From contig OMIX01000010.1 in assembly GCA_900299195.1 (NCBI GenBank), forward strand, positions 1 through 41,276: a stretch of DNA of 41,276 nt, written 5' to 3'. How positions within the stretch are numbered: position 1 is the first letter of the stretch; each line of letters begins with the position of its first letter. The DNA is from Deltaproteobacteria bacterium (lineage in GTDB: Bacteria; Bdellovibrionota; FAC87; UBA2466). The notes under the pieces are model-generated. The model saw nothing but the letters and a program-made list of their open reading frames with translations, did not search any database and was not told the DNA's origin. The translations under genes and the position numbers were made by a program. This document shows positions 7,284 to 21,501 of this stretch, piece after piece.

Positions 7284-8054
7284 TTATTTCTTCAGAGTTC
7301 TCTCTAGTGTCGTATAAAATTCATTATGGGTACAATCGATGTTGATAGGAACCACGGAGACAAAACCTTCTTCAATAATATGACAATCCGACAATGGAGC
7401 TTCTTCAAATCTCTCGTAAGCTCCACCAATCCAATAATAATCTCGTCCCCGGGGATCCACTCGTTTGGTCACTTCGTCTTTGTAATATCGAATCCCCTGT
7501 CGAGCGACCTTAATTCCCTTAACTTGAGAGGCCTCAAGGTTGGGCACATTCACGTTTAAGAGTGAATGGGCTGGAAACGAAGTATTCAAAGTAGATTCCA
7601 AAACTCTCTTGGCCATTTGAGCTGCCATTTCAAATCTTAAAGGCTCTTTAGGATGGTTTGGAAGAGTTGCGGCCATATCCACTAAAGAGAAAGCATAGCT
7701 TCGAATGTTCATGAGAGCCCCTTCTCTCGCCGCAGCTACTGTCCCTGAATAATAACGATCGGTTCCCAGATTAGCACCGCGATTGATCCCGGAAAGAATA
7801 ACATCAGGACGGCCTTTCACGATTTCACGAATTCCCAAGTACACACAATCAGCGGGCGTTCCGGAAGTAGAAAAATAATTATTACCCAAGGATTGAATCC
7901 TTAAGGGTTTGTGCAAAGTTAAACTGTGGCCGGCTGTGCTCCTTTCTCGATGTGGAGCTACCACATAAACCTCGCCGAAACTTTTCACCGCTTCAGCTAA
8001 AGCCCTTATTCCAGGAGATTCAATGCCATCATCATTTGAAATTAAAATTTTCAT
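7284..8054 (-). CDS. surE: 5'/3'-nucleotidase SurE
   Basis: 256 residues. The SurE metal-binding N-terminus MKILISNDDGIESPGI has the paired aspartates. It is followed by VVAPHRERSTAGHSLTL, the GTPADCVYLGI loop, and SGINRGANLGTDRYYSGTVAAAREG. All are diagnostic for this divalent-metal phosphatase acting on nucleoside monophosphates. The start overlaps the prfB stop as ATGA, with an AAGGTG ribosome site inside prfB, so the two are probably co-translated. It is not obviously modified relative to the family. Confidence 0.95.
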   Translation of the reverse strand: MKILISNDDGIESPGIRALAEAVKSFGEVYVVAPHRERSTAGHSLTLHKPLRIQSLGNNYFSTSGTPADCVYLGIREIVKGRPDVILSGINRGANLGTDRYYSGTVAAAREGALMNIRSYAFSLVDMAATLPNHPKEPLRFEMAAQMAKRVLESTLNTSFPAHSLLNVNVPNLEASQVKGIKVARQGIRYYKDEVTKRVDPRGRDYYWIGGAYERFEEAPLSDCHIIEEGFVSVVPINIDCTHNEFYTTLERTLKK

Positions 8055-9173
8055 TTCACACCTTTGTTGAGCAAATAATTTTCAATGAAGGGTTGAAGTT
8101 TACCATCTAGAACCGACAAAACATCTCCCACTTCAAATTCAGTTCGGTGGTCTTTACATAATCGGTAAGGAGCCAACACATAAGAACGAATTTGGCTTCC
8201 CCAAGCAATGTCCATTTTGGAATCTTCTACCACTTTCTTTTCCTGATTACGCCTTTCCATTTCCCGTTCAAAAAGCCGGGCCTTTAAGATCTTCATCGCC
8301 ATGGCTCGATTTTGGTGCTGGGATCTTTCATTTTGAGAAGAAACAACGATTCCGCTGGGAATATGGGTAAGTCTGACCGCAGAATCCGTTTTGTTCACAT
8401 GTTGTCCCCCGGCCCCGCCCGCTCGAAACGTATCTATCTTAAGGTCTTTGTCCAACACTTCGATCTCGATGTCTTTTTCGATATCGGGATACACAAAAAC
8501 TGAGGCAAAAGAAGTGTGCCTACGCTTATTAGCGTCAAAAGGAGAGATTCTCACCAGCCGATGGACTCCATTTTCAGCTCCTAACAAACCAAAAGCATAA
8601 GAGCCTTGAACCAAAAATGTACAAGATTTAATCCCGGCCTCTTCACCTTGCAGTTGATCGATCAAACTGACTTTAAAGCCCTGATCTTCGGAATACCGAA
8701 CGTACATTCTCATCAACATTTGAGCCCAATCTTGGGCTTCAGTGCCCCCCGCTCCCGCATTGATGCAAACGAAAGCGTCAGCCGAATCATTGGGCCCCGC
8801 AAGCATTTGCGCCAGTTCCATGGCCCGAATCTGTTTTTCGAGTGAGGAGACCTCTGCTGCAACTTCTTTGAGATTTTCCTGAGTGGGTTCAAGCTCTACC
8901 AGATCTATCAAAGCAGTCAGGTCCTCTAAATGGCGTTGCGCCATTGAAACTTTATCCACACTCGATTGGAGCAGTGCTTTTTCTTTTAAAATATTTTGAG
9001 CGTTTTTTTGATCCAGCCAAAAGGACTCTTGGGCTTCTTGGTTTTCTATCTCTGAAATTCGAAGTCGTTTGTGGTCGACGTCAAAGCCGCCCCCTAAGCA
9101 ACTCAAACCGATCCCGCAACGATTTGGTATTTCGCTTTAACTCTTCAAAATTGTAGGTTTGAAAATCGTTCAT
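8051..9173 (-). CDS. prfB: Peptide chain release factor 2, made by programmed +1 frameshift
   Basis: RF2 recognises UAA and UGA stops. A 30-codon first frame starts at the ATG at 9173-9171 and reaches CTT at 9086-9084, then an in-frame TGA at 9083-9081. Skipping base 9083 continues as GFDVDHKRL... down to 8051, giving about 373 residues in total. A one-frame call starting at 9106 would miss the real N-terminus. The body carries the RF2 codon-recognition tripeptide SPF (in VRISPFDANKRR), where RF1 has PxT, and the peptidyl-hydrolysis motif GGQHVNKTDSAVR. The stop overlaps surE. Expression is expected to be autoregulated through competition between termination at TGA and the shift. Confidence 0.95.
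9080..9095 (-). promoter_or_regulatory. prfB +1 frameshift signal
   Basis: On the minus strand AGGGGG (9095-9090) is followed by three bases and then CTT TGA C (9086-9080). An SD-like stimulator three bases before CUU-UGA-C is the classical RF2 autoregulatory slippery site. The P-site tRNA slips from CUU to UUU when RF2 is scarce. Both flanking frames are open, and the fused product matches RF2 across the junction. Confidence 0.95.
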
Positions 9174-9234: not shown

Positions 9235-9588
9235 TTAGAAACAACGCCTTCTAGCGACTCGACATCTAGAGACCGGTCGGCAACATCGCCGACAACCACG
9301 AGGGCCAAAGAATGGACGTCCGAAACCGCCAAAACCTCCGATACTGATACCGAAGCTGAAAGAATTATACCGGGGATATCCTCCATAATAAGGATAAGGG
9401 TAGGGATTCGGGTAGGGATAGGGATACGGATAAACCGGGGCTAAACCCGAACTATGAGTCCCAACTGGAATGGCAGTCGTGCGGGCCACTTGAGTGACTC
9501 GACTCACAGGAATCAACACTTCGGCTTTAGCAGTTTCAGCTGCTAAAAACAGAATTCCTAACAGTAATAACCATCCATGTGTTTTCAT
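9235..9588 (-). CDS. Small exported Tyr/Pro-rich, Cys-rich protein
   Basis: I do not recognise a family. From the chosen ATG (9588) the product is 117 residues with a clear signal peptide (MKTHGWLLLLGILFL, then AAETAKA with cleavage likely before EVLIPV). The mature part has a run of alternating Pro-Tyr (about residues 55-70), a Gly/Phe segment (FSFGISIGGFGGFGRPFF), and a C-terminus with six cysteines and many arginines. This looks like a surface or envelope structural peptide. An upstream in-frame extension would bury the signal peptide, so I reject it. A weak TTGAGG ribosome site precedes the start. Confidence 0.6.
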   Translation of the reverse strand: MKTHGWLLLLGILFLAAETAKAEVLIPVSRVTQVARTTAIPVGTHSSGLAPVYPYPYPYPNPYPYPYYGGYPRYNSFSFGISIGGFGGFGRPFFGPRGCRRCCRPVSRCRVARRRCF

Positions 9589-9787
9589 ACTCAACCTCAA
9601 CATACTCATCGCAACAACAACTGAAACACCAGCAATTGCCCACAGAGGAAATTGCCCAGAAGACCTAACAGCAACACCCATGCCACTGCATTTTCATTTA
9701 AAGATAACGCCTAGTTTTATTCGTAGACCAGTTTTACGCGCAAAAATAGTCACTACACATCGTGTGTATTCTAGACAAAATACACGT

Positions 9788-9847
9788 TCTCCACGGAATT
9801 TATGTAGATGGTTGATGGCGCATAGTACTGTAATGGAAACAGCACCC
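9788..9847. repeat. Diverged direct repeat, copy A
   Basis: This 60-bp stretch matches 12203-12262 in the same orientation at about 77% (46 of 60 bases). Shared blocks include GGAATTTA, TGGTTGAT, CGCATAG and TGTAATGGAAAC. Mismatches show no codon-position bias in either reading frame I compared, so it does not look like conserved coding sequence. The two copies flank the acyltransferase gene. Confidence 0.7.
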
Positions 9848-9886
9848 GTTGGACCAAAACGGGTATTATATTTCTGATTAGCGTCT

Positions 9887-10000
9887 CATAAATTTTCCGG
9901 AGATCCCAAAATACACCTTCGCCCTGATCAAATCCAAGCTATCAAGGTCAAAGCCTACTGCTTTTGCTCTCACTTTGGGAAAGACTTAAGAAACTTTCAT
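9887..10000 (+). pseudogene. Possible fragment of an MntA-like nucleotidyltransferase
   Basis: The rest of the 459-bp gap 9589-10047 holds no complete gene. One plus frame is open for about 65 codons without a start codon. It reads IHLRPDQIQAIK and, soon after, HFGKDLR. This resembles the extreme N-terminus of MntA/HEPN-partner nucleotidyltransferases (LTxxQIQAIK...FGxDxRV), but the GSRVD catalytic region is missing. If real, it is a leftover from the toxin-antitoxin gene class. Similarity covers only about 30 codons, so this is tentative. Confidence 0.25.
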
Positions 10001-10047
10001 GGTATTTCTATTATAACGGCAACCAAGTTCAGACTGAGACCTACATT

Positions 10048-12174
10048 TCAATTAGATGTGATCTCGTCAACAAGGAGCTGACGAGCTAAATATTTTGAGG
10101 CGGAAGGGGTCAGATGACCGTAGTCCCAGGTCGTTAGGGATTCGTAAATATCATCTCCGGTGTACATCAGGCATCCCTCTAAATTGCAAAGCAAATTAAT
10201 AATATCAATATATTTAGTGTTGGCTAAAGACGAAAGCTTGCTCGATAACTGTTTGTTGCTGCTAATTATATCACGATTGATTCCCAGTTGGGTTCGTTGC
10301 TCTTTTGTTTTCCATAGTCGGCGAGCAATGATTTTTGGCAAATCAGTGTTCCATTGGGGAGTTGGACCCACAAAAACAATTTTTTTAACTCCAAACGCAT
10401 TTAGTTTTTTGGAAAGATCCGACATAGTTTGAAATGAATGGTTATTGCTTTGAGCAATAACAACAACATCTGGGAGTTCTTTCTTAACTGTTTCAATAGC
10501 TAATAAATTAGAGCGGGCGCATCGGCTTTGAAACTTAGAACCTTCTGTTTCAAGTTTCGGAGCACAACCCGACGTGGCAATTTGTAACACCTGCCAATTT
10601 TTTGGAATGAACCGACTGATGCCTGGGCGTAGAGCTTGCGCGTGCGAATCTCCCCAGATTAAAACTGATTTATCAAATTTAGCATCTCTCTTGTAGCAGG
10701 AGGAGGAAATTTGCAGTCGGGGAGTGCTATCCATTATTCCATTTTTTAAATATTTTTCCACATTAAGAAAATCACAATCATATCGCCATTCGCGCATCAA
10801 GTTTGCTCTTTGAAAATAAGTCCAATTAGGAAATGAGTTTTCAAAGTTGTAAATAAACACTTCCTTATCGTTGGCTCTAAATCTAAATCCATCCTGCCTA
10901 AATGTGCAATATCCCACGAGGGCAATACTGGCCAAAAGTACAATGAGCGCTGTAACTTTGCTTTTCTCTTTCCCGCCAAAGCGCATGGGGCTTTCTATTA
11001 TCCAATAGGTCAACCAAGCTAGAATTATTGATATTACTACTACGCCAAATCGAACACCTCTGCTTGGGGATCCAATATTGATAATGTATGCAAACGAAAG
11101 TAAGGGCCAGTGCCACAGGTACAAGGGAAAGCTGATTAGGCCGAACCAAATAGCTAAACGATTTGATAAAATTAGTCTATTAACCCAAGCACTAGGGCCT
11201 GCAATAATAATTAGCATTGCGCCACAGACCGGGATTAAAGCCCAGTTTCCGGGAAAAAGCACCGTCTTATTTATTCTAGAAAATCCATAAATCAGAACTA
11301 AAAGTCCGATTAGGGAAATTGTATCAGTTAGCTTTTTATGAAAATCGGCTGAGTTTTTAAAGAAGGGGATTTTATTTAGCCAAAGATCAAACTTAGATTT
11401 ATTGCTCCCAAAATATCGTTTTTTGTACAAACTAAACCAAGCAAGCAAACTGCCACTTAAAAGTTCCCAAAATCGAGTTTGGGGTGAGTAAAACGTGGCC
11501 ACAGAATCCCTTCCAATCCCCTTTTCATTTAGCAAAAATGAGACAACAGTGAAAATAGCTGTAATTTTAAGTGGATTGAACTTTCTCTTCCAGCCGAGCC
11601 AAAGAATCATCGGCCACAGAATATAAAACTGCTCCTCAATACCCAAGCTCCATAAATGCAGAAGGGGCTTTGCTTCGGCTGAACTATCAAAATAACCCGA
11701 TTCACTCCAAAGAAGAAAATTAGAAAAAAATACTGAGCTCGCAGCTATGTGACTGCTTAGTTGCTTGTATTCATTATCAAAGAGAAGGAACCAACCAATG
11801 ATATACACCGTCAACAAAACGAACACTAGAGCGGGAAATATTCGCCTGATTCGTCGCGAGTAAAAACTAGCGAAGCTAAAGGTTCCCTTATCGAGCTCTT
11901 CAAAAATAATAGTAGAGATCAGAAAGCCAGAGATAACGAAAAAGATATCTACCCCGATAAATCCACCTTGCATCAATTTTGGAAATGCATGAAAGACAAC
12001 TACAGATAAAACAGCGATAGCTCTCAACCCGTCAATGTCAGGTCGATACTTTGGGTTTAAAAGATAGGCAGTTCGATACGTCATAGAATCAAATGCATGG
12101 GAGGAATTCCATGTTTCCCTATTAATTCTATCCTCGTATATGGTCTTTTTCACTTTAAAAAGACGACTGTTCAT
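10048..12174 (-). CDS. AT3-SGNH O-acyltransferase (OafA-like)
   Basis: About 708 residues from M at 12174. An acyltransferase-3 membrane domain begins at PDIDGLRAIAVLSVVVFHA, then GGFIGVDIFFVISGFLIS and the RRIRRIFPALV segment, with about ten membrane helices. The C-terminal half is an SGNH hydrolase-like domain with the block I serine in WGDSHAQALRP and a late DYGHLTPSA motif supplying Asp/His. Such fusions O-acetylate surface polysaccharides or peptidoglycan. The frame is open further up to 12294, but that part consists of the repeat at 12203-12262, so I exclude it. M at 12084 is equally plausible, because family members usually start just before YRPDIDGLR. The gene stands alone between direct repeats and looks more AT-rich than its neighbours, suggesting acquisition. 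Confidence 0.9.
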   Translation of the reverse strand: MNSRLFKVKKTIYEDRINRETWNSSHAFDSMTYRTAYLLNPKYRPDIDGLRAIAVLSVVVFHAFPKLMQGGFIGVDIFFVISGFLISTIIFEELDKGTFSFASFYSRRIRRIFPALVFVLLTVYIIGWFLLFDNEYKQLSSHIAASSVFFSNFLLWSESGYFDSSAEAKPLLHLWSLGIEEQFYILWPMILWLGWKRKFNPLKITAIFTVVSFLLNEKGIGRDSVATFYSPQTRFWELLSGSLLAWFSLYKKRYFGSNKSKFDLWLNKIPFFKNSADFHKKLTDTISLIGLLVLIYGFSRINKTVLFPGNWALIPVCGAMLIIIAGPSAWVNRLILSNRLAIWFGLISFPLYLWHWPLLSFAYIINIGSPSRGVRFGVVVISIILAWLTYWIIESPMRFGGKEKSKVTALIVLLASIALVGYCTFRQDGFRFRANDKEVFIYNFENSFPNWTYFQRANLMREWRYDCDFLNVEKYLKNGIMDSTPRLQISSSCYKRDAKFDKSVLIWGDSHAQALRPGISRFIPKNWQVLQIATSGCAPKLETEGSKFQSRCARSNLLAIETVKKELPDVVVIAQSNNHSFQTMSDLSKKLNAFGVKKIVFVGPTPQWNTDLPKIIARRLWKTKEQRTQLGINRDIISSNKQLSSKLSSLANTKYIDIINLLCNLEGCLMYTGDDIYESLTTWDYGHLTPSASKYLARQLLVDEITSN

Positions 12175-12202
12175 GCGTTTAGGCTTTAAATGGAAATAGA
12201 TC

Positions 12203-12262
12203 TCTCCATGGAATTTAATTAAGTGGTTGATTACGCATAGGGATGTAATGGAAACGGAACCT
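12203..12262. repeat. Diverged direct repeat, copy B
   Basis: Partner of 9788-9847 in the same orientation, on the upstream side of the acyltransferase gene. Weaker similarity may continue about 25 bp beyond it (GTTGxxCAAAA...). It may be a duplication scar of an insertion or a shared upstream element, since both copies also lie upstream of a minus-strand gene. Confidence 0.7.
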
Positions 12263-12295
12263 GGTTGACAAAAACCAATATTCATCTGAAACAAA

Positions 12296-12332
12296 GCGCC
12301 CGATTGAGGCGGAGGTTACTTCCTCCTGGCGC
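12296..12332. other. Nested inverted repeat upstream of the TPR gene
   Basis: The outer arms GCGCC (12296-12300) and GGCGC (12328-12332) enclose GGAGG (12311-12315) and CCTCC (12322-12326). It lies in the 328-bp gap 12175-12502, which otherwise holds repeat B and no gene. A TATAAT box is present at 12371-12376 without a good -35 element. Function unknown; it could be a transcript stem-loop or a terminator for neither neighbour, as no T-run follows. Confidence 0.35.
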
Positions 12333-12502
12333 AAAATTCGTTTGTGGGCTCTACACTTAAACCTAACTCGTATAATGGCGTTATCCAATTCGCCTCGTAA
12401 GCCTTCGCCCCACTCTAACTTCGTCGTTCCCATCCCATCCTTGGGTTCTTCTTGTTTGATCTTCTGCCTTTTGTTAGGATTTTTTTAGAGGCAGACAAAC
12501 GA

Positions 12503-13792
12503 ATGAAAAAATCATCTATTTTCAAAGGCTCATTTTTAATCGTAGCAATTCTTTCCTTTCTCACATTCTCATGGAGGAACCGCTCTCCCTTTCCCCCTTA
12601 CCGTTTTTTAACTCAGAACCGTTCTTCTCAACTGTCTGACAGCATTCAAGTTCTGGAAAAGCAAATCAATCAAAACACCCCCGATCCTTTCCAACTTGCC
12701 TCTCTGGCTTCTTTAAAACTAGCCCAAGCCCAATCCACGGGTAAAAAAAATGATTATGACCAGGCAGAAAATCTGGCTCGCAAATCTTTAACCATTCTCC
12801 CCCACCCAAATTTTCAATCCTTACTTGTTTTAGCGCGAATTGCAGAAGCGAATCATGATTTTGACAAAGCTATCGACTTAAGTAAAAAAACTCTCGGTAC
12901 CTCACATAAAAAAGAGGCCATTTCCATTTTGGTAACCTCTTACTTAGCCAAAGGCGAATTAACCGAAGCTTCTCACTGGGCCGACACCTTGGTTTTAGAG
13001 CGCCCCTCAGTCGATACCTATTCATTAAGAGCCCTAGTACTCAATGCACAAGGAAGAGAGTCTGAAGCCGAATATGACTTTCTTAGAGCTCTCAAAGTAG
13101 AAGATATCGACGAAAATATTTCTTCAGCTTGGGCGCGAGCTCAACTTGCCAAGTTCTATATCAAAAAAGGGAAGCTCTATTGGGCAGAAGAATTACTTAA
13201 AGAGTGCTCTAAAATAATTCCTAAATATCCTTTGGCTATTTCCTTACAAGGCGAATTAGAATCGGCTCGAGGACATTTTTCTAAGGCAGCTGAAAAGTTC
13301 TTAGAGGCTTTTACTTTGACCCGACAAGTAAACTACCTCAGACTCTATGCCCTTGCCCAAGAGAAAAATGGGCAGGAGGAAATCGCTAGGGAATCTCGAA
13401 ATGAAGCTGAACTTTTGATGAGAAAAGAACTGTCTCAGGGCAACCTTGGACACCGAATGGATTTGGCTTTAATTCTCTTAGATTCCAACCAACTCTCCAA
13501 AGCCCCAGAAGCCATTCAGCTAATGGAAGCCGAGGTCAAATTTAGAAAAAGTTCTCAAGTCTTTTACACTCTAGCCAAAAGTTACAGGCTCGCCCAGCGT
13601 TGGCGACAGGCTCAAGAGGCTATCCAAGCCAGTCTGAGAACGGGAATCCGAGATGAACATTTGTATCTTGAAGCTGCAATGATCGAGGAAAAACTGGGGA
13701 ATTTGTCCAAAAAGCATTTCTTTGAAAATCTCGCCCAACAGGTTAATGCCAATCATTCAAAGTCTCTCTTCCCTTCTCTTCTTAACAGTTAA
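12503..13792 (+). CDS. Membrane-anchored TPR protein
   Basis: 429 residues from the ATG at 12503, preceded by TAGAGGC. An upstream TTG at 12452 is possible but would put charged residues before the anchor. An N-terminal hydrophobic segment (about 9-23) probably anchors the protein, with most of it in the periplasm. The rest is helical repeats of TPR type: typical A-helix/B-helix patterns recur from about residue 75 to the end (for example KAIDLSKKTLG, EAEYDFLRALK, KAAEKFLEAFTL, EAIQASLRTGI). Its stop overlaps the stop of the convergent HupE-like gene. TPR proteins are often found with HupE/UreJ and DUF4331 genes, so it probably belongs functionally to that locus. Confidence 0.8.
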   Translation: MKKSSIFKGSFLIVAILSFLTFSWRNRSPFPPYRFLTQNRSSQLSDSIQVLEKQINQNTPDPFQLASLASLKLAQAQSTGKKNDYDQAENLARKSLTILPHPNFQSLLVLARIAEANHDFDKAIDLSKKTLGTSHKKEAISILVTSYLAKGELTEASHWADTLVLERPSVDTYSLRALVLNAQGRESEAEYDFLRALKVEDIDENISSAWARAQLAKFYIKKGKLYWAEELLKECSKIIPKYPLAISLQGELESARGHFSKAAEKFLEAFTLTRQVNYLRLYALAQEKNGQEEIARESRNEAELLMRKELSQGNLGHRMDLALILLDSNQLSKAPEAIQLMEAEVKFRKSSQVFYTLAKSYRLAQRWRQAQEAIQASLRTGIRDEHLYLEAAMIEEKLGNLSKKHFFENLAQQVNANHSKSLFPSLLNS

Positions 13793-13796
13793 GAAG
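13778..13796. terminator. Palindrome containing both convergent stop codons
   Basis: A perfect 8-bp inverted repeat, CTTCTTAA-CAG-TTAAGAAG, contains the TAA stops of the TPR gene (plus) and the HupE-like gene (minus), which overlap by 4 bp. It may act as a bidirectional transcription stop, but no T-run follows on either strand. Confidence 0.35.
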
Positions 13797-14904
13797 CAAA
13801 AGCGCGACGAATAAACCAGTAGGTTCCCATGAGAAAAATACTGCCCCCTCCCAGATTAAAAACTATCCTCTCAGTCACCCTGCTCTGTCTAAGAATGTAA
13901 AACACAGGAAACACCATAGCCACAATCACACATTGTCCTAGTTCGACTCCGAGGTTGAAACCTAAAAGAGCCTTCAACATCTGAGAAGATTTTAAATTGA
14001 GCTCGGTGAGGGCACTTGCAAATCCCATCCCGTGAATCAGACCAAATCCCAATGCTATTTTCCAATGGTCTCGTTTTTTTTGTATCACCATCGACTGAGC
14101 AGCCACATAAGCAATGGAAAAAGCAATGGCCGACTCTACCCAACGCGATGAAAATGGAACAAAGCCCAAAACTCCTAAAGCCAAAGTAATCGAATGGCCC
14201 ACCGTAAATCCAGTCACTACTTTCAACACCGAAACAATGCTGACTTCACACAACAAAAGAGCCACCACAAACAAAATGTGATCTAAACCGTCTGGCAGAC
14301 GAAATTGCTGTCCAGTCCACCACTGGCTAGGCGTTACTCCAATATGCTCAACGCCTAACCCAATAAAAGCCCCCGCTCCTGAAGCTGTCTTTTTTAACTC
14401 AAACTGCAATTGCGGCTTATGGGTATTCAAAGAACTAAAATGCTCCTCTTTCGAAGAATAAAAACGGACAATAAACTCATAGCTTTTGGGAAGTTTATCC
14501 CAAAAATAGGTCTCCATTTTTAGTGGCCCCTTTTGTTCCGCGCACTCCCAGTACTGCGAAATCCCTACACTTTGAGGCAAACTCAAAGAAATCTGGGCCT
14601 TCTCTTGAGGAACACATTTCTGTCCCCCCCGGATGAGAGCTATTTTATTTAATGTTTCTTGCTGCAAGCTCAGGAGGTTTTCTTGAAAATCTTGTTCAGT
14701 CGGAGTTTCAGAATTTATCCCCACCCAATTTTTGACGGCTATGGGGTTCATCTCAAAGCGAACCCGAATCCCCTGGTTTTCTTCATTCAATGTCACTAGT
14801 CCCATATCTAAAGGGTGAGCAACGATCATTTGGGCCAAACAACAGAAAAAGAAAAGAATTCCCCAGGATAGAGGGGAAAAAGAATTTATTTCACGAAACT
14901 TCAT
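13789..14904 (-). CDS. HupE/UreJ-like membrane protein with exported N-terminal domain
   Basis: 371 residues. A signal peptide (about 1-29, ending VAHPLD) is followed by a beta-rich extracytoplasmic domain to about 190. The C-terminal half has about six or seven membrane helices with HupE/UreJ_2 hallmarks: GLDHILFVVALLL, TGFTVGHSITLALG, and GFGLIHGMGFASAL with conserved His. HupE/UreJ homologues are linked to nickel or other metal uptake, but this two-domain type is mostly uncharacterised. It is the last gene of a four-gene minus-strand run with gaps of 39, 11 and 15 bp (DUF4331-N, DUF4331-C, LspA fusion, this gene). Confidence 0.85.
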   Translation of the reverse strand: MKFREINSFSPLSWGILFFFCCLAQMIVAHPLDMGLVTLNEENQGIRVRFEMNPIAVKNWVGINSETPTEQDFQENLLSLQQETLNKIALIRGGQKCVPQEKAQISLSLPQSVGISQYWECAEQKGPLKMETYFWDKLPKSYEFIVRFYSSKEEHFSSLNTHKPQLQFELKKTASGAGAFIGLGVEHIGVTPSQWWTGQQFRLPDGLDHILFVVALLLCEVSIVSVLKVVTGFTVGHSITLALGVLGFVPFSSRWVESAIAFSIAYVAAQSMVIQKKRDHWKIALGFGLIHGMGFASALTELNLKSSQMLKALLGFNLGVELGQCVIVAMVFPVFYILRQSRVTERIVFNLGGGSIFLMGTYWFIRRAFAS

Positions 14905-14919
14905 AGACTCATCATCATT

Positions 14920-16377
14920 CTAAATTTCCAAAAACTTTTCAATTCTCATTCGAGGGGGATGATCTGCGATAGTTGTTCCATAGTAACAATCCACCACTTT
15001 TCCTTCTTTTCCAAGAAAAAAGTGGGCAGGAAGTTGACTGAGTTCCCCATCAATCGAGCCTTGAAGATACCCTGATTTTTTAGCCCTAAGAAATGTAGTG
15101 ATCGCCTTAAAAGAAATTAATCCCAAGACACTTTTTTGGGTCCGATAAAGAAAATAAAGTTTCTTTTCGGGGTCTGCAATCAATGGGATTTGCATCTCTC
15201 CTAGAAGTCGCCCTATTTCGCCCGTTTCTTTTTGCGGCTTAATAAACTTATCTTTCGCATTTTCATAAACCACAGCAACAGCTATTCCCAGATTCTTCGC
15301 TCTGTCTATCAAAGGACGTATTTCGCTTAAATGCAAAGCGCACAAAGGACAAGAAGCATACCGGTAAAAAATAACCCAAGATTTTTTACCCTCGAAATAT
15401 TCCGGACCAATCCTTTCTCCTTTAAAAGTTGTCCCGGAAATAAAAGGAGCTTTCATCCCTGTTTCTAATTTGGGCTTTATCATCCCTAAGTTTTCATGAA
15501 AATGGGTCTGAAATCGCATGGCCAGTTCTTCAAAATGCATAAACTCATCTCGCTCACGCAATTTGAACTGGGAATTTTTTCCGTTAATCAAGTCATCCAA
15601 AAATCGTGAAAAGCTTTTTACAGGTCCAACGATTCGATGAGAAAGGCGAATCCCTATTAAAAATAGACTGACAAAAAAGAAAGCACAGATAAAAAGATAA
15701 CTCCAGGTAAAAGTATTTTGGATACCGATTGTCTGTTCAAAGGGTAAACTTGTTCTACTCAAGACGATTTGAAGAAAGGAATGGGAAAGAAAACCTGAAA
15801 TTAATCCAAAGCTGGCTCCGACAAAAATCAAGGTCAAACAATACTTCCCCTGAAAATAAGGATCGATCCAAAGCCTTCCTCTTCGATCTTCGGGGGGATA
15901 AAAGACATTTCGTTCTCGAATAAAAGAAAAGAAGAACAACCCTACCCCAAGCCACTGAAGCGAATCGGCTATATTAAAAACCCCCGTTTGAATCACTCCC
16001 AATTTCACAAAAATAAAATCAACGACAGAACCAAATCTAAATCGATCCACAACGTTGCTGATAAATGATGCGAAAAGAACAGAGAGACCTATCCTTAAGG
16101 TTTTTGAAGCGATCGGTAAAAAATACTGAAGTACGAAATGGGCGTAAACGAGAAATCCCCCCAGCGACACCGGGAGAATCACAGTCAGAAGTTGAGAGGC
16201 ATCTTTAAAACCACCTAGAAAAAAACCGGTATTATAGTGAAGCCCCAAAATAAAAGGGCCCCACGAAAGAGGATTGACCAAGTAACTTTGCGCTAAAGTT
16301 TTTGAGGCTTGATCAATCCCCAATACGAGAGCAAACGGAAGGAGCACATAACCTAACCATACTCGACCCTGGCTCAT
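14920..16377 (-). CDS. Signal peptidase II fused to HAMP-like and peroxiredoxin-like domains
   Basis: 485 residues, three parts. (1) Residues about 1-155: lipoprotein signal peptidase (LspA) with GIDQASK (D22), NVVDRFRFGSVVDFI (N108, D111, catalytic D120) and FNIADS (catalytic D138), so probably active. (2) About 175-300: two membrane helices (about 183-204 and 224-245) around a short outside loop, then a HAMP-like segment (HRIVGPVKSF...RDEFMHFEELA). (3) About 305-485: AhpC/TSA-type thioredoxin fold with a CxxC-like centre, ASCPLCALHLSE (C343, C346), probably cytoplasmic. LspA is normally a stand-alone enzyme of about 160 residues, so this architecture is unusual. It sits directly downstream of two exported DUF4331 proteins, one with a lipoprotein-like N-terminus. 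I do not give the symbol lspA because a housekeeping copy may exist elsewhere. Confidence 0.85.
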   Translation of the reverse strand: MSQGRVWLGYVLLPFALVLGIDQASKTLAQSYLVNPLSWGPFILGLHYNTGFFLGGFKDASQLLTVILPVSLGGFLVYAHFVLQYFLPIASKTLRIGLSVLFASFISNVVDRFRFGSVVDFIFVKLGVIQTGVFNIADSLQWLGVGLFFFSFIRERNVFYPPEDRRGRLWIDPYFQGKYCLTLIFVGASFGLISGFLSHSFLQIVLSRTSLPFEQTIGIQNTFTWSYLFICAFFFVSLFLIGIRLSHRIVGPVKSFSRFLDDLINGKNSQFKLRERDEFMHFEELAMRFQTHFHENLGMIKPKLETGMKAPFISGTTFKGERIGPEYFEGKKSWVIFYRYASCPLCALHLSEIRPLIDRAKNLGIAVAVVYENAKDKFIKPQKETGEIGRLLGEMQIPLIADPEKKLYFLYRTQKSVLGLISFKAITTFLRAKKSGYLQGSIDGELSQLPAHFFLGKEGKVVDCYYGTTIADHPPRMRIEKFLEI

Positions 16378-16388
16378 GCTCCCTCAAA

Positions 16389-17066
16389 TTAATATGCGGT
16401 GGCTAAAAATGGGAAAGTCGCACTTCCGCCATAATTGGCCTGACCATGTAGTTTTTTATGCCCTTGCGCAATATTTCCGCTCACGCCTTGGTAGGTAACA
16501 TTGTCTTTCACTGAATTCCCACTAGGATCGCCTGCCACCAAATAACTGAGAGTAATATCTACCACATCGTCTTCCGGCTTACGTCCTCCCGTCAAAATAG
16601 GGGCGGTCCCATTTACCAGTTCGAATGCTCCGTTATACGCCGCTGTCCCTGGAGGAATATTTTTAGTGGTATCGATTCTCATCACATCAGGAAGAAATCC
16701 GGCCACTACTTTGCTATTAAATCCAGCTTCAAAATGGGCGGTTCCATCTAGAGCATCCACTACCCCTAAAGCAGTCGCAGCTTCTTGAAGGACCGCTAAA
16801 ACTGCGGGATTGTCAGTTGCCAAATCTAACGTAGGCGGGATGCTATTGAAGGCTAGCAATTTATCATTTGAAATAATAAGGCCTTCATTCACTGCTGGCC
16901 TACCCAGTCTTTCAATTTGAACAAACCCATCATCGGCCCTTCGAGGCACCTGCCCTCCACCACTTTGGTCAAACGTTTTAACTCCGCAGTTTTGAAGAAC
17001 AAATAAAAGTCCCCCAACCACAACTACCAATGAACCCAACGCTGTGATAAATTTCTTGTTTTTCAT
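16389..17066 (-). CDS. DUF4331 protein, C-terminal half
   Basis: 225 residues. It matches the second half of DUF4331 proteins: ERLGRPAVNEGLI near residue 52, the long helix with NPAVLAVLQEAATALG, then PDVMRIDTTKNIPPG, ILTGGRKPEDDVVDITLSYL, and an end rich in aromatic residues. It has its own AAGGA ribosome site and a hydrophobic N-terminus with Cys27 (VLQNCGV), a lipoprotein-like but imperfect lipobox. It therefore looks like a real separate protein rather than the broken end of its upstream neighbour. The function of DUF4331 is unknown. Confidence 0.8.
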   Translation of the reverse strand: MKNKKFITALGSLVVVVGGLLFVLQNCGVKTFDQSGGGQVPRRADDGFVQIERLGRPAVNEGLIISNDKLLAFNSIPPTLDLATDNPAVLAVLQEAATALGVVDALDGTAHFEAGFNSKVVAGFLPDVMRIDTTKNIPPGTAAYNGAFELVNGTAPILTGGRKPEDDVVDITLSYLVAGDPSGNSVKDNVTYQGVSGNIAQGHKKLHGQANYGGSATFPFLATAY

Positions 17067-17105
17067 AGTTATTCCTTTTTATGAATGTTCCCTTTTTGGT
17101 GTGAT

Positions 17106-17879
17106 TTATCGAGGGACTGAAATGGTTGTCCAAACATCAAAACTTGTTTGATTTGAGTTTTGTTGAAGAAGTGCAAATGGGACTCTAACCACAATGGAGT
17201 TAACGTTGTAATTGTGAGTAAAGTCCTTAGCCTGGTTGGGCGGCAAAAACCCGATAAACTGTGGGTTTCTTCCCCCATTTGCAACAAACGTTTCTACGGC
17301 CTTAGCGCGAACTTTAAAAAACTGCTCTACGTCAAAAAAGAAAGGGTCTTCTCTAAGTCCTGCAAAGACCGTGAGCAACTTACCCCTCACAGAAACCACG
17401 TTATTGGCCAATCTTTCTGCCTTAGAATCACTAATATTGGTGGTAACAATTCCGCTTCCGCTAGTCGTTTGTGTCGCCGTAGTCGCAGAACCATCATCAT
17501 AGACCAATCTTATCGCTTGCTGCCCCGTAGCATTGGGTTCACTGAAAGATAAGGTCAATAAAATATCATCGGCTCCCGTGGGTTTTTTATTTTTATCAGC
17601 ATCCAAAACACGGGTTAAGTGAAAAGTATAACGAGCCTGAGTGCTAAAAAAGTATTGTTGTCCGGGTAACGAACGCGGATTGGTATTCATCACCAAAATG
17701 AGATTGGCAGCATCTGCAGGATTTCCCGTTTGATTATCTTCCCTGAAAGCATAGACATCGGTGATATTGAGAGAGCGCCCTTTGCGTTCTGTTTCCCCAT
17801 CATCATGATCCGATGCAACACTCATCAATGACAATAAACACACCACCACTCCAGTGAAAAAAAACAAACTGAATTTCAT
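17106..17879 (-). CDS. DUF4331 protein, N-terminal half
   Basis: 257 residues with a signal peptide (about 1-22, cleaved near SVASDHDDG). The mature start has the DUF4331 pattern DHDDG...LNITDVYAFRE, followed by VFAGLREDPFFFD near 170 and NSIVVRVPFALL near 230. It ends in the FDVWTTIS strand, exactly where full-length DUF4331 proteins continue into the RxGRPxVNE half. That second half is encoded by the next gene after 39 bp. It is first in the operon; the upstream gap (17880-18000) should hold the promoter, and beyond it lies the displaced coaX end. Confidence 0.8.
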   Translation of the reverse strand: MKFSLFFFTGVVVCLLSLMSVASDHDDGETERKGRSLNITDVYAFREDNQTGNPADAANLILVMNTNPRSLPGQQYFFSTQARYTFHLTRVLDADKNKKPTGADDILLTLSFSEPNATGQQAIRLVYDDGSATTATQTTSGSGIVTTNISDSKAERLANNVVSVRGKLLTVFAGLREDPFFFDVEQFFKVRAKAVETFVANGGRNPQFIGFLPPNQAKDFTHNYNVNSIVVRVPFALLQQNSNQTSFDVWTTISVPR

Positions 17880-18000
17880 GATTGAATCTCCCAGAAGATT
17901 AGTTGAAATAAAATTCTATCATATTGATATTTAAATGCTAAGAGAGAGTTTCGGGTGGGTTAGGTTTCATTTCAAGTAACCGTCGACTGGATCTGAAATA

Positions 18001-18203
18001 TTAAGAAAGATTCTCTTGATACAGAATCGCGATACCTTCTAAGGTTAGGTTGGGTAAAATCTGAGTCCGATTTTTTAAATGGGGATGAATTAAAGGAGCC
18101 ATTCCCCCAGTGAGAGCGATTTGACAACGTTTTCCCATCTCACTTTGTAGTCGCTCGAGTAACCCATCAATCGCATCACAATAACCAAACAAAATCCCGC
18201 TTT
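18001..18203 (-). pseudogene. Displaced 3' end of coaX (duplicate)
   Basis: 203 bp matching 19964-20166, the last part of coaX, with six mismatches (about 97%). Five of these lie close to the stop codon and one in the middle. It encodes about 63 C-terminal CoaX residues (MFGYCDAIDGLLER...) with no start context and abruptly loses similarity at 18204. With the intact coaX it brackets a ~1.76-kb segment carrying one membrane-protein gene. Weak similarity may extend some 20 bp past the stop on the DUF4331 side. Confidence 0.92.
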
Positions 18204-18234
18204 TTTAAAGTAATTTGATATCATGGGATAAGCC

Positions 18235-19812
18235 ATGTCCAATTCTCATCGTTCTAAGCGCTTCCTAGCGTCGGCTTTATTTACTTCTGTGCTATGCCTC
18301 TATTTGTGCTCGGAATTATCCCCTCGCTGGGAAACTAATGATGATGTTGGCTTATCGATGATAGCACATGGGTTTGGAATTATTAAAACCTCTTCCCCTC
18401 TTCTAATGTTTTCAAATGTCATTTGGGGATACTTTGTAAGAGCTATTCCTCCAATAAATGGTATATTGGGCTACTCAATTGCCCTAATTTTAGCAAACTG
18501 CTTATCTGTTGTAAGTATAGTTACTGCCTTTTTAATATTTGATTGGGGTATGCTTATCTCCTTCTCATTGGGAGCGATCATTTTGCTCCGCTTAATAATA
18601 TCACCTCAATTCACAGTAAGTGCCGGCGTGCTTGCTATTTCAGCTTTATGTTGGATCGAGGTTTATAAAAGAGACCACAGGTATGGTTCTCTTCTGTTTT
18701 CTTTCTTTCTTGTTTTTCTTTCTTTTGTAATTCGCTCGAATGAAACAGTATTGGTTTTTGTAACGGGCTTTAGTTTTTTTCTTTTAGTACCCACGAACCT
18801 AAAGAAAAAATTACTGATTGGGGGTATATTCCTTTTTTTTGTTTTATTAACTGCTGAACGATGGAACTCTCTTCAATACAACAATCCAGCTTGGCGTGAT
18901 TATAATGAAACTTTTGAAACTCGAAGAAAAATGATCGATTTTGGGTGGGGGAACAAACTTAAGGAACACAGAAATCTGCTTTTTGAGAAGGGCTTGTCGG
19001 AGAATGATGTTACTCTGTATGAAAACTGGTTTTTAGGCGATTTGGAATTAAAAGAATCAAAAATGATTGCTGAGCTACTAAAAGATCATCGAACTAACTT
19101 TAGATTATTTAACTTCAACTGGGCCAGAGGATTAGATTGGTTAATGCATTTCAAAAACATGGGTCCTTTATTTTTAACCTCATGCGTGTTTTTTTTTCTA
19201 GTTCCTTCCTTAAGACTATTTTTCCTTTGGATAGCTACCTTGCTTTCTTTATTTGTTATCGGGACTTCTGGAAAACCAGCAGTTTTTAGAGTTATGATCC
19301 CTTTACAGTATCTGTTGCTTTCAGCTCCCTTTTTATTATCCTCAAAAAAACCAAGACCTTCTCAGAAAGCTGTTAGCTTTCTCGTCTTATTCGTCTGTCT
19401 TATCTTCGAGGCTAGAACTTATATTAGGGGTACAACTGAGAGAACCAAAAGAGTTTTTGAAATATCTAAATCTCTCACAGAACTGGAAAACAGACGCATT
19501 GTTATCTGGGGTGGTTGGTTCCCTTTTGAAGAGGCATTTCCGGTATTAGGAAAGAATCTAGAAAACAAAAAATTGCAACTCATGAGCTTAGGATCGAGTA
19601 CCTTAAATCCCAATTCGTTTATGAATCACTCATTTAAAAATGGAGGCACCATTAAAAGTTTATTAACCTCAAGTGAGGGGCTTGAATTAATTTCATCTGA
19701 CTATGAATTAAACCTCCTCAAAGTTTTCTGTCAGGAACACTTAAGTTCTCAACTTAAAATCCTAAACCAGCAGTGGAATGGCTATTTTTTAATTACCAAG
19801 ATTCGCTGCTAA
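18235..19812 (+). CDS. Polytopic membrane protein, possibly GT-C-like
   Basis: 525 residues; I do not recognise a named family. An N-terminal helix is followed by WETNDDVGLSMIAHG with N35-D36-D37. About ten membrane helices follow to about residue 385, with a large hydrophilic loop (about 215-295), then a soluble C-terminal domain of about 130 residues. Acidic residues in the first outer loop and this topology recall GT-C glycosyltransferases that use lipid-linked sugars, but this is only a shape argument. It reads opposite to its neighbours, is clearly AT-rich, and is the only gene on a segment between two copies of the coaX 3' end, so it was probably acquired. No clear ribosome site precedes the ATG. 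Confidence 0.7.
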   Translation: MSNSHRSKRFLASALFTSVLCLYLCSELSPRWETNDDVGLSMIAHGFGIIKTSSPLLMFSNVIWGYFVRAIPPINGILGYSIALILANCLSVVSIVTAFLIFDWGMLISFSLGAIILLRLIISPQFTVSAGVLAISALCWIEVYKRDHRYGSLLFSFFLVFLSFVIRSNETVLVFVTGFSFFLLVPTNLKKKLLIGGIFLFFVLLTAERWNSLQYNNPAWRDYNETFETRRKMIDFGWGNKLKEHRNLLFEKGLSENDVTLYENWFLGDLELKESKMIAELLKDHRTNFRLFNFNWARGLDWLMHFKNMGPLFLTSCVFFFLVPSLRLFFLWIATLLSLFVIGTSGKPAVFRVMIPLQYLLLSAPFLLSSKKPRPSQKAVSFLVLFVCLIFEARTYIRGTTERTKRVFEISKSLTELENRRIVIWGGWFPFEEAFPVLGKNLENKKLQLMSLGSSTLNPNSFMNHSFKNGGTIKSLLTSSEGLELISSDYELNLLKVFCQEHLSSQLKILNQQWNGYFLITKIRC

Positions 19813-19963
19813 CCAATCTACTTTAAACTTAAGAAACCCGATTTTACATCTCTTTAAAACCTCATTGTGGATGCCGAAACACTTGTCTTAAGATTCAAGA
19901 CCACTGGCCCCACCGGTGTCTACAATGGAGTTTTCCTCCTCTGGGTGACCGCCGTCTAAAATA

Positions 19964-20166
19964 TTAAGAGCGATTCTCTTGATACAGAATCTCTATCCCT
20001 TCTAAGGTTAGGTTGGGTAAAATCTGAGTCCGATTTTTTAAATGGGGATGAATTAAAGGAGCCATTCCCCCAGTAAGAGCGATTTGACAACGTTTTCCCA
20101 TCTCACTTTGTAGTCGCTCGAGTAACCCATCAATCGCATCACAATAACCAAACAAAATCCCGCTTT
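19964..20166. repeat. coaX 3' end, in-gene copy of the duplication
   Basis: Same-orientation partner of 18001-18203. The repeat ends at the CGCTTT at 20161-20166, where coaX coding continues in this copy and unrelated sequence begins in the other. The boundary therefore marks a junction inside coaX about 67 codons before its stop. Confidence 0.92.
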
Positions 20167-20731
20167 GAATACAATTAACCGTATTTTTCCCAATCACTTT
20201 TTTAGGAAAATCAGTGGGAACTAACGGTAACAGCGATGTCTTTCGGCTCAGACTTTCTGCTCCCATCGCAATTCCAGGAAGGATAATCCCTCCTTCAAAA
20301 GCTTTCTTCTCACTAACGACATCAAAGGTAGTCGCAGTGCCAAGATCGACGACAATCGCAGGAAGTTCCAGGTTTTTAACCGCATATGCGGTATTAGCTA
20401 ACCTATCGGCCCCTACCTCAGTTGGATTATCTACGGAGATAGAAAATGAAGCTCGACTTAAATGGGTCACAAAAAAAGGCTCTTTTCCCAAATAAACTTC
20501 ACAGAATTTTTTTAAATTAAAATTGCATGAGGGGACCACTGAAGAAATAGCAATTCCCTCCACTTGCTCCGCTAAAATTTTAGAATAGCTCAATAGAGGG
20601 AACAAGAAACCCGCATACTCATCTACGGTCCTCACCGGTTTCGTTTCCCCACGCCAATGGTAAACCAACTTAGATTTTTCAAATACCCCATAGGAGGTTT
20701 GAGTATTCCCCACGTCCATTACCAACAACAT
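19964..20731 (-). CDS. coaX: Type III pantothenate kinase
   Basis: 255 residues, full length for CoaX. It catalyses the first step of coenzyme A synthesis, phosphorylation of pantothenate. Visible motifs are the N-terminal phosphate loop MDVGNTQTSYGVF, PTEVGADRLANTAYA, VVDLGTATTFDVV and GGIILPGIAMGAESL. Its 5' end overlaps the end of birA by 13 bp, a common pairing. The last ~67 codons are duplicated downstream, so the present 3' end may have come in with the inserted segment while keeping the reading frame intact. Confidence 0.95.
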   Translation of the reverse strand: MLLVMDVGNTQTSYGVFEKSKLVYHWRGETKPVRTVDEYAGFLFPLLSYSKILAEQVEGIAISSVVPSCNFNLKKFCEVYLGKEPFFVTHLSRASFSISVDNPTEVGADRLANTAYAVKNLELPAIVVDLGTATTFDVVSEKKAFEGGIILPGIAMGAESLSRKTSLLPLVPTDFPKKVIGKNTVNCIQSGILFGYCDAIDGLLERLQSEMGKRCQIALTGGMAPLIHPHLKNRTQILPNLTLEGIEILYQENRS

Positions 20732-21501
20732 ATAACTTCTCCAGTGACCAAAGAACGTCGATTTCCGTGGCTATCCGATAACACAAGAGCCCCCTGTTCA
20801 TCAATTCCTAGAAAAGTTCCCTCGATATAACCATGGCCCAGCTCCCTCTCCTCGGGCAAACCTGTATTTCTTATTTTTATTTTGCGCCCCATTAAAAGGC
20901 AGTGTTTTTCCCAAGAATTTTGCACAAAGCTGAACCCATAAGACAAATACTGTTCATGTTGATGAAAGAAAACTTGAAGAAAGTTCTCTAAAACACTTTC
21001 AAGCTCAAAAACTTTGCCTTGAGAGGCTTCCATAAATGAAGTGGCCTGAAAGGGACGGTCTGAAAAAGCTACCAGTTCTGAAGGCGGGATGTTGACGTTC
21101 AAGCCCACTCCTATAATGAGGGCCGCGGAGTGTCCAACTCCGATACTCTCACAAAGCACTCCACCCACTTTTTTATTTCCCAAGAGACAATCGTTGGGCC
21201 ACTTGACTCCCACAGCTATCGACTGAGGAAAAAATCGCTTTACTGTTTGGGCCATGGCAGCCCCGGTCAAAAGCGAAAAGTCGGTGATTCTACCATCGGT
21301 TTTCGGACGAAGAAGAATTGAAAAATACAGCCCTCCCAAAGGTGAATGCCAGTTGCGATTGACGCGACCTCGCCCTGAAGTTTGTTGCTGAGCCACAACT
21401 ACGGTAGCCTCAGCGGCTCCCGACTCAGCGAGTTTTTTTAGAGTGGAATTGGTCGACTCAAGCGACTCGTATCTAATTAGGTTGGGTACTACTTCAGGCA
21501 A
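20719..21501 (-). CDS. birA: Biotin--[acetyl-CoA-carboxylase] ligase (no DNA-binding domain)
   Basis: 260 residues. The catalytic domain has the biotinyl-AMP loop GRGRVNRNWHSP (about 48-59), then GGLYFSILLRP, KWPNDCLLGNKKVGGVLCE and GVGLNVNIP, and a C-terminal SH3-like cap (about 215-260). It attaches biotin to the carboxyl carrier protein. There is no N-terminal helix-turn-helix, so it is the monofunctional type and not a repressor. It overlaps coaX and lies 11 bp downstream of the receiver-domain gene. Confidence 0.93.
   Translation of the reverse strand: MPEVVPNLIRYESLESTNSTLKKLAESGAAEATVVVAQQQTSGRGRVNRNWHSPLGGLYFSILLRPKTDGRITDFSLLTGAAMAQTVKRFFPQSIAVGVKWPNDCLLGNKKVGGVLCESIGVGHSAALIIGVGLNVNIPPSELVAFSDRPFQATSFMEASQGKVFELESVLENFLQVFFHQHEQYLSYGFSFVQNSWEKHCLLMGRKIKIRNTGLPEERELGHGYIEGTFLGIDEQGALVLSDSHGNRRSLVTGEVICCW

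Follow-up and report, generated by a model that had tools for sequence, protein, structure and literature searches.

Insertion of foreign DNA inside a partial duplication of a gene end has been described in Escherichia coli, where small, non-replicating, linearisable plasmids gave partial duplications of the target-gene end in 56 of 60 recombinants. The duplications measured 109-950 bp in the 14 recombinants sequenced and were attributed to trimming, re-circularisation and a single crossover (PMC3240628). The locus described here, at the 3' end of the pantothenate kinase gene coaX, resembles this lacZ-end system in that foreign DNA lies inside a gene-end duplication of variable length with no site-specific recombinase. 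The two differ in that the lacZ insertions were obtained with a laboratory plasmid under selection and disrupted lacZ, whereas here, in natural genomes, the core genes are intact and the repeats measure 54-212 nt. In homology-facilitated illegitimate recombination (HFIR; PMC3240628, PMC2884548), including that of the Vibrio T6SS immunity arrays (PMC5361080), one homologous anchor is combined with one illegitimate joint, an accessory gene is added and the old sequence is moved downstream, as is proposed for the present case. Classic HFIR, however, usually deletes resident DNA, as one-sided illegitimate recombination generally does (PMC2884548, PMC5361080), whereas resident DNA is duplicated here and the donor joint at which microhomology would be read is lacking.

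Two further systems share part of the anatomy. At icd, e14 and phage 21 (PMC11148124, PMC10111431) also restore the gene 3' end in frame and displace the original end beyond the insert, but the insertions reported here have no integrase, a tiny cargo, several targets and scattered breakpoints. In the merodiploids of Streptococcus pneumoniae, transformation likewise gives direct duplications beside the inserted DNA, although these are mostly very large and guided by pre-existing repeats, e.g. IS copies (PMC3784515).

The window, that is the whole stretch of 41,276 nucleotides analysed, is contig 10 of a 2.83-Mb genome in 128 contigs (G000). The target gene coaX (19964..20731, minus strand) encodes a type III pantothenate kinase of 255 aa with a full-length Pan_kinase domain (PF03309, E=5e-62), 73-78% identical to its counterparts in congeners. 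The 3' end of this gene is present twice. Copy A (19955..20166, minus strand), delimited by repeat comparison, comprises the intact coaX end and 9 nt past the stop, while copy B (17992..18203, minus strand) is a displaced end, truncated at its start, which keeps the coaX frame from codon 189 through codon 255 to the stop with no internal stop and breaks off abruptly at 18203/18204. Together they form a direct repeat of 212 nt, 96.7% identical and spaced 1963 nt apart, in which the coaX-internal part accounts for 203 nt with 6 differences, and a 212-nt match of this kind is far beyond chance. Intact coaX is a single-copy gene in the genome, its sole further match being the displaced piece. The first-pass annotation had reported a coaX repeat of about 97% on both sides of a segment, an intact coaX reading frame and an insertion at the gene 3' end, and all of this was borne out: the duplicated coaX end around an inserted gene is confirmed as an observation, coaX is complete and in frame with a replacement end that keeps it functional as judged by its sequence, and the displaced in-frame tail lies on the far side of the cargo.

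The differences between the copies are unevenly placed, with five of the six in the 203-nt coaX part falling within its final 34 nt (binomial 0.0017 for a 41-nt window, the boundary of which was picked after the data were seen). In an alignment of gene ends the two coaX copies resembled each other far more than they did any congener sequence, which points to a donor from the same species or one very near to it and agrees with the earlier suggestion of a homology-driven insertion from another strain.

The inserted segment (18204..19954) measures 1751 nt and has a G+C content of 0.37 versus 0.43 for the window. As the annotation had stated, it carries only a membrane protein gene and no integrase: a single ORF of more than 70 codons was present (18235..19812, plus strand), encoding a polytopic membrane protein of 525 aa, and no recombinase or integrase gene was found in the segment by ORF and domain search. 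The spacer between the cargo stop and copy A (19813..19954) was unmatched in all relative loci examined.

No Pfam or NCBIfam model covers the 525-aa protein, and no sequence match to it was found in the PDB. Its relatives, which share 29-39% identity and an invariant WETNDDV motif, come from Nitrosomonadales, Polaromonas, Cupriavidus, Achromobacter, Pusillimonas, Xanthomonas, one cyanobacterium and the congener G005, a scatter that marks the family as widespread and patchy. A fold search with the AlphaFold model of the protein (mean pLDDT 72) ranked DPY19 C-mannosyltransferase and OST/STT3 first among PDB structures and ALG9 and PMT4 below them, all of them GT-C enzymes and all weak matches (E=3e-3, prob 0.99, TM ~0.37 for the top hits). 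On the predicted fold of its product, the cargo gene probably encodes a glycosyltransferase of GT-C type that acts on surface glycans. The gene had no match in the phage, plasmid and viral-contig collections searched, so a viral, phage or plasmid origin of the cargo was rejected, and no coaX relatives were found in viral contigs.

In Achromobacter sp. HZ34 (L051 9965-12720), too, coaX and a homologue of the cargo gene converge. This adjacency was set aside as coincidence, since coaX and birA are both missing from the surroundings of six other homologue loci; presumably a glycan locus adjoins coaX in the Achromobacter group, going by Bordetella.

The neighbourhood of coaX is conserved in outline. 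In six relatives of the family the order is birA-coaX-prfB with 0.2-1.6 kb between the last two, and in most of them flagellin, response regulator and birA genes lie upstream of coaX. In the window, birA (20719..21501, minus strand) and prfB (8051..9106, minus strand) keep their places as the upstream and the far neighbour, and the coaX-prfB gap has grown to 10.9 kb. The rest of this variable interval (9235..17879) holds a small gene and AT3 acyltransferase, TPR, HupE, lsp-TSA and DUF4331 genes, and at 14920-16377 one ORF fuses signal peptidase II and AhpC/TSA domains. The two DUF4331 genes (17106-17879 and 16389-17066, both on the minus strand) lie just past the displaced copy. The empty site that had been envisaged, with coaX followed directly by DUF4331, did not materialise: in none of the relatives examined do these genes adjoin coaX, and DUF4331 lies on separate contigs in G003, with HupE next to it, and in G007, where it adjoins TPR. 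At coaX it is the wider coaX-prfB order that can be demonstrated, with the native neighbour of the displaced tail unconfirmed. Comparison of these gene orders gives coaX-small gene-prfB as the ancestral arrangement, with G004 as the best candidate empty site, and the block from DUF4331 to the acyltransferase was probably acquired separately.

Direct repeats 0.4-12 kb apart were listed in 119 stretches that cover 1.65 Mb of the 2.83-Mb genome. Besides dispersed and MITE-like repeats, three loci were left, namely coaX, a 4Fe-4S membrane protein gene (FeS) and uvrC. On contig C18 (L080 12056-12137 and 15532-15613) the last 54 nt of the 4Fe-4S gene are repeated 3.5 kb downstream, and the cargo between the two tails consists of a GT87-family gene, a DUF4424 gene and an unknown gene. 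The FeS copies show 0 differences in these 54 nt and 9 in the next 28 nt (Fisher 2e-5, again with a boundary picked after the data were seen), a stretch past the identity that forms a terminator still recognisably related between the copies. On contig C37 (L101 1-81 and 4382-4526; L188, the end of C13) the last 145 nt of uvrC are repeated with 144 identical, around a cargo of a DUF4143 ATPase gene and a gene for a 574-aa membrane protein, for which the family signal is very weak. Intact uvrC sits at the C13 end and reads on in frame into C37:1-78, and we infer that the two contigs join here. A break at this point is expected, because a repeat of more than 121 nt should break this assembly.

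A polytopic membrane protein is encoded in all three cargos and glycosyltransferase signals are present in two, so glycan-enzyme-like membrane genes recur in them, although three cases do not suffice to give a rate. No end motif or words common to the three cargos, such as integron cassettes with an attC-like end might show, were found, and inverted matches between the opposite ends of a cargo reach at most 6-9 nt. Terminal inverted repeats and a short fixed target duplication, the marks of a transposon or insertion sequence, are absent.

Several other repeats were encountered. L176 and a 120-nt repeat in L101 were rejected as displaced gene ends, being dispersed non-coding MITE-like repeats. 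Copies of a MITE-like non-coding repeat with ends like ATTTACCTGG lie at L101 181-315, 1666-2066 and 4097-4216 and at L086 17954-18320; it has no Rfam match, and a truncated copy flanks the 574-aa gene. Near the contig ends of C8 and C98, a 127-nt repeat of 97% identity (L071 102-228 and L162 1-127) closely follows a PMT_2-like membrane gene at one site and a methyltransferase gene at the other and may represent another such insertion.

The congeners provide empty sites at the two parallel loci. uvrC and hmoX are directly convergent in G001, G002 and G004, and the 4Fe-4S gene and a papain-family gene are directly convergent in G001, G003, G004 and G005. In G000 the displaced tail is, at both loci, the part adjoining the native neighbour. 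The insertion is therefore the derived state, the displaced tail represents the original gene end, still in place, and the intact gene is the one that received new downstream DNA. Resident DNA was duplicated and none was deleted at either locus. A different polytopic membrane ORF lies beside hmoX in G003 (L191 2521-3888), where other congeners have uvrC, and in G002 (L201 2550-3140) a methyltransferase gene remnant lies between the 4Fe-4S gene and the papain gene without a displaced gene end; these extra inserts indicate that the uvrC-hmoX and FeS-papain junctions were struck more than once.

A second coaX case was found in the congener G005 (C233, L034 2881-3952), in which an unrelated 313-aa gene, on the coaX strand, separates coaX from a displaced fragment of itself that retains codons 156-177 at 85% and codons 216-235 at 98%, the stretch between being deleted. 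The arrangement is a probable parallel insertion, weaker than the other cases because the contig stops at the displaced piece. The first displaced codon is 189 in the window versus about 156 in G005, with no fixed crossover point. The G005 cargo is unrelated to that of the window and matches no transferase family, and no recombinase was found in it.

In each of the insertions in G000, the cargo lies within a direct repeat of part of the target, with one copy an intact gene and the other truncated, as in insertion-duplication. The arrangement probably arose when DNA bearing a gene end together with cargo integrated by a homologous single crossover or by one-sided illegitimate joining, a reading in which our confidence is moderate. 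At coaX, the 525-residue gene would have come on DNA that also bore a coaX end from the same or a very close species, and homologous pairing within this end would have joined the incoming DNA to the resident gene. The other end would have been joined without homology, the incoming piece having circularised so that one crossover duplicated the common gene end. Alternatively, one-sided illegitimate joining on the sister chromosome may have closed it, one-sided illegitimate recombination being a near alternative to the circular single crossover. Either course would yield intact coaX, the cargo, the displaced original tail and the old neighbours. Such insertions would survive only where the target gene stays whole and would consequently collect at gene 3' ends with no site-specific enzyme. 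The 3'-end position would then be a result of selection, and duplication past the stop would let DNA enter an intergenic gap of a few bases with neither gene broken.

The differing repeat lengths (54 nt at FeS, 145 nt at uvrC and 212 nt at coaX) and the differing coaX breakpoints in G000 and G005 argue against a fixed site. The clustering of differences towards the 3' end in coaX and FeS would fit the incoming tail of a diverged homologous gene, the upstream part having been homogenised by exchange, and is read as support rather than proof of integration by homology. ComEC is encoded in G000, which by itself is no demonstration of competence. No donor with coaX and the cargo in native order was found, and microhomology at the distal junction is unreadable without the donor sequence. 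What the sequences show is the architecture, the two parallel cases of this genome with their empty sites in congeners, and one probable parallel in a congener; the route of DNA entry, the circular or linear intermediate and the function of the cargo are our inferences.

Other origins were weighed against the same evidence. A local copying error, in which the fork switched to foreign DNA past the coaX stop and back about 200 nt upstream with no need of homology, would account for the variable repeat lengths and for repeats ending near a stop codon, and would make a circular intermediate unnecessary. It is nonetheless unlikely, as it predicts identical copies with later differences spread evenly, whereas the differences seen are clustered at the 3' ends of coaX and FeS; end joining with fill-in was rejected as unlikely too, since Ku was not found in G000 or in the family members searched. 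In the case of an integrase-type island or decayed prophage, a site-specific recombinase would have cut inside coaX and the element would have brought the replacement 3' end itself, with its integrase since lost or acting in trans. The anatomy observed is close to that of e14 at icd, where the displaced end of 165 bp has 12 substitutions and an intact frame (PMC11148124), and att identity blocks can reach ~250 bp (PMC10111431). This origin is decidedly unlikely in view of three different target genes, a coaX breakpoint that shifts between the two genomes, cargo ends with no common motif, the absence of a recombinase from the coaX cargo and from that of G005, and a cargo gene without counterpart in phages, plasmids or viral contigs; an integrase or transposon origin is accordingly disfavoured.

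The annotation had also raised a non-autonomous cargo cassette, and a family of these, each carrying a single membrane glycosyltransferase gene inserted at gene 3' ends by an enzyme acting in trans, would suit the polytopic membrane proteins in all three G000 cargos, two with glycosyltransferase signals and the third with a very weak one, as well as the further polytopic ORF at the uvrC-hmoX junction in G003. The proposal has no support in view of the lack of a shared end sequence, terminal inverted repeat or size, the variable duplication length, the two coaX breakpoints, the missing phage, plasmid and viral matches and the unrelated G005 cargo, and such a family is quite improbable. An assembly artefact joining two strains at coaX is more improbable by far. 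The assembly is fragmented and shows strain-level overlaps of 97-98% at some contig ends; the repeats at the C27/C68 and C96/C14 ends were rejected as insertions, being strain-level overlaps inside one gene. Against an artefact, the window contains no N, the longest exact run common to the coaX copies is 91 nt, no word of at least 93 nt is common to both, and further contig ends in the same assembly share exactly 121 nt of overlap, which means that the copies are separable in a k=121 graph. The 18203/18204 joint, moreover, has no overlap able to create it, and two further loci repeat the same anatomy at sites that are empty in congeners.

Integration of the kind proposed would bear on how such insertions are recognised. 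Catalogues of gene insertion mostly seek integrases, tRNA sites and transposons, whereas displaced core-gene tails reveal insertions made without them, allow an insertion to be dated from the divergence of the two copies, and show which genes are kept. The pattern at three core genes suggests a simple, recombinase-free way to add surface genes while leaving the old genes unbroken. More tentatively, and with considerable doubt, this lineage may possess a recurring route, independent of recombinases, by which surface-glycan transferase genes are added singly to core-gene 3' ends, the displaced tails being its scars, with coaX-prfB, uvrC-hmoX and FeS-papain as genus-wide hot spots that possibly serve cell-surface diversification. 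If general in the genus, such a route would explain how surface-modifying genes come to lodge one at a time among closely spaced core genes.
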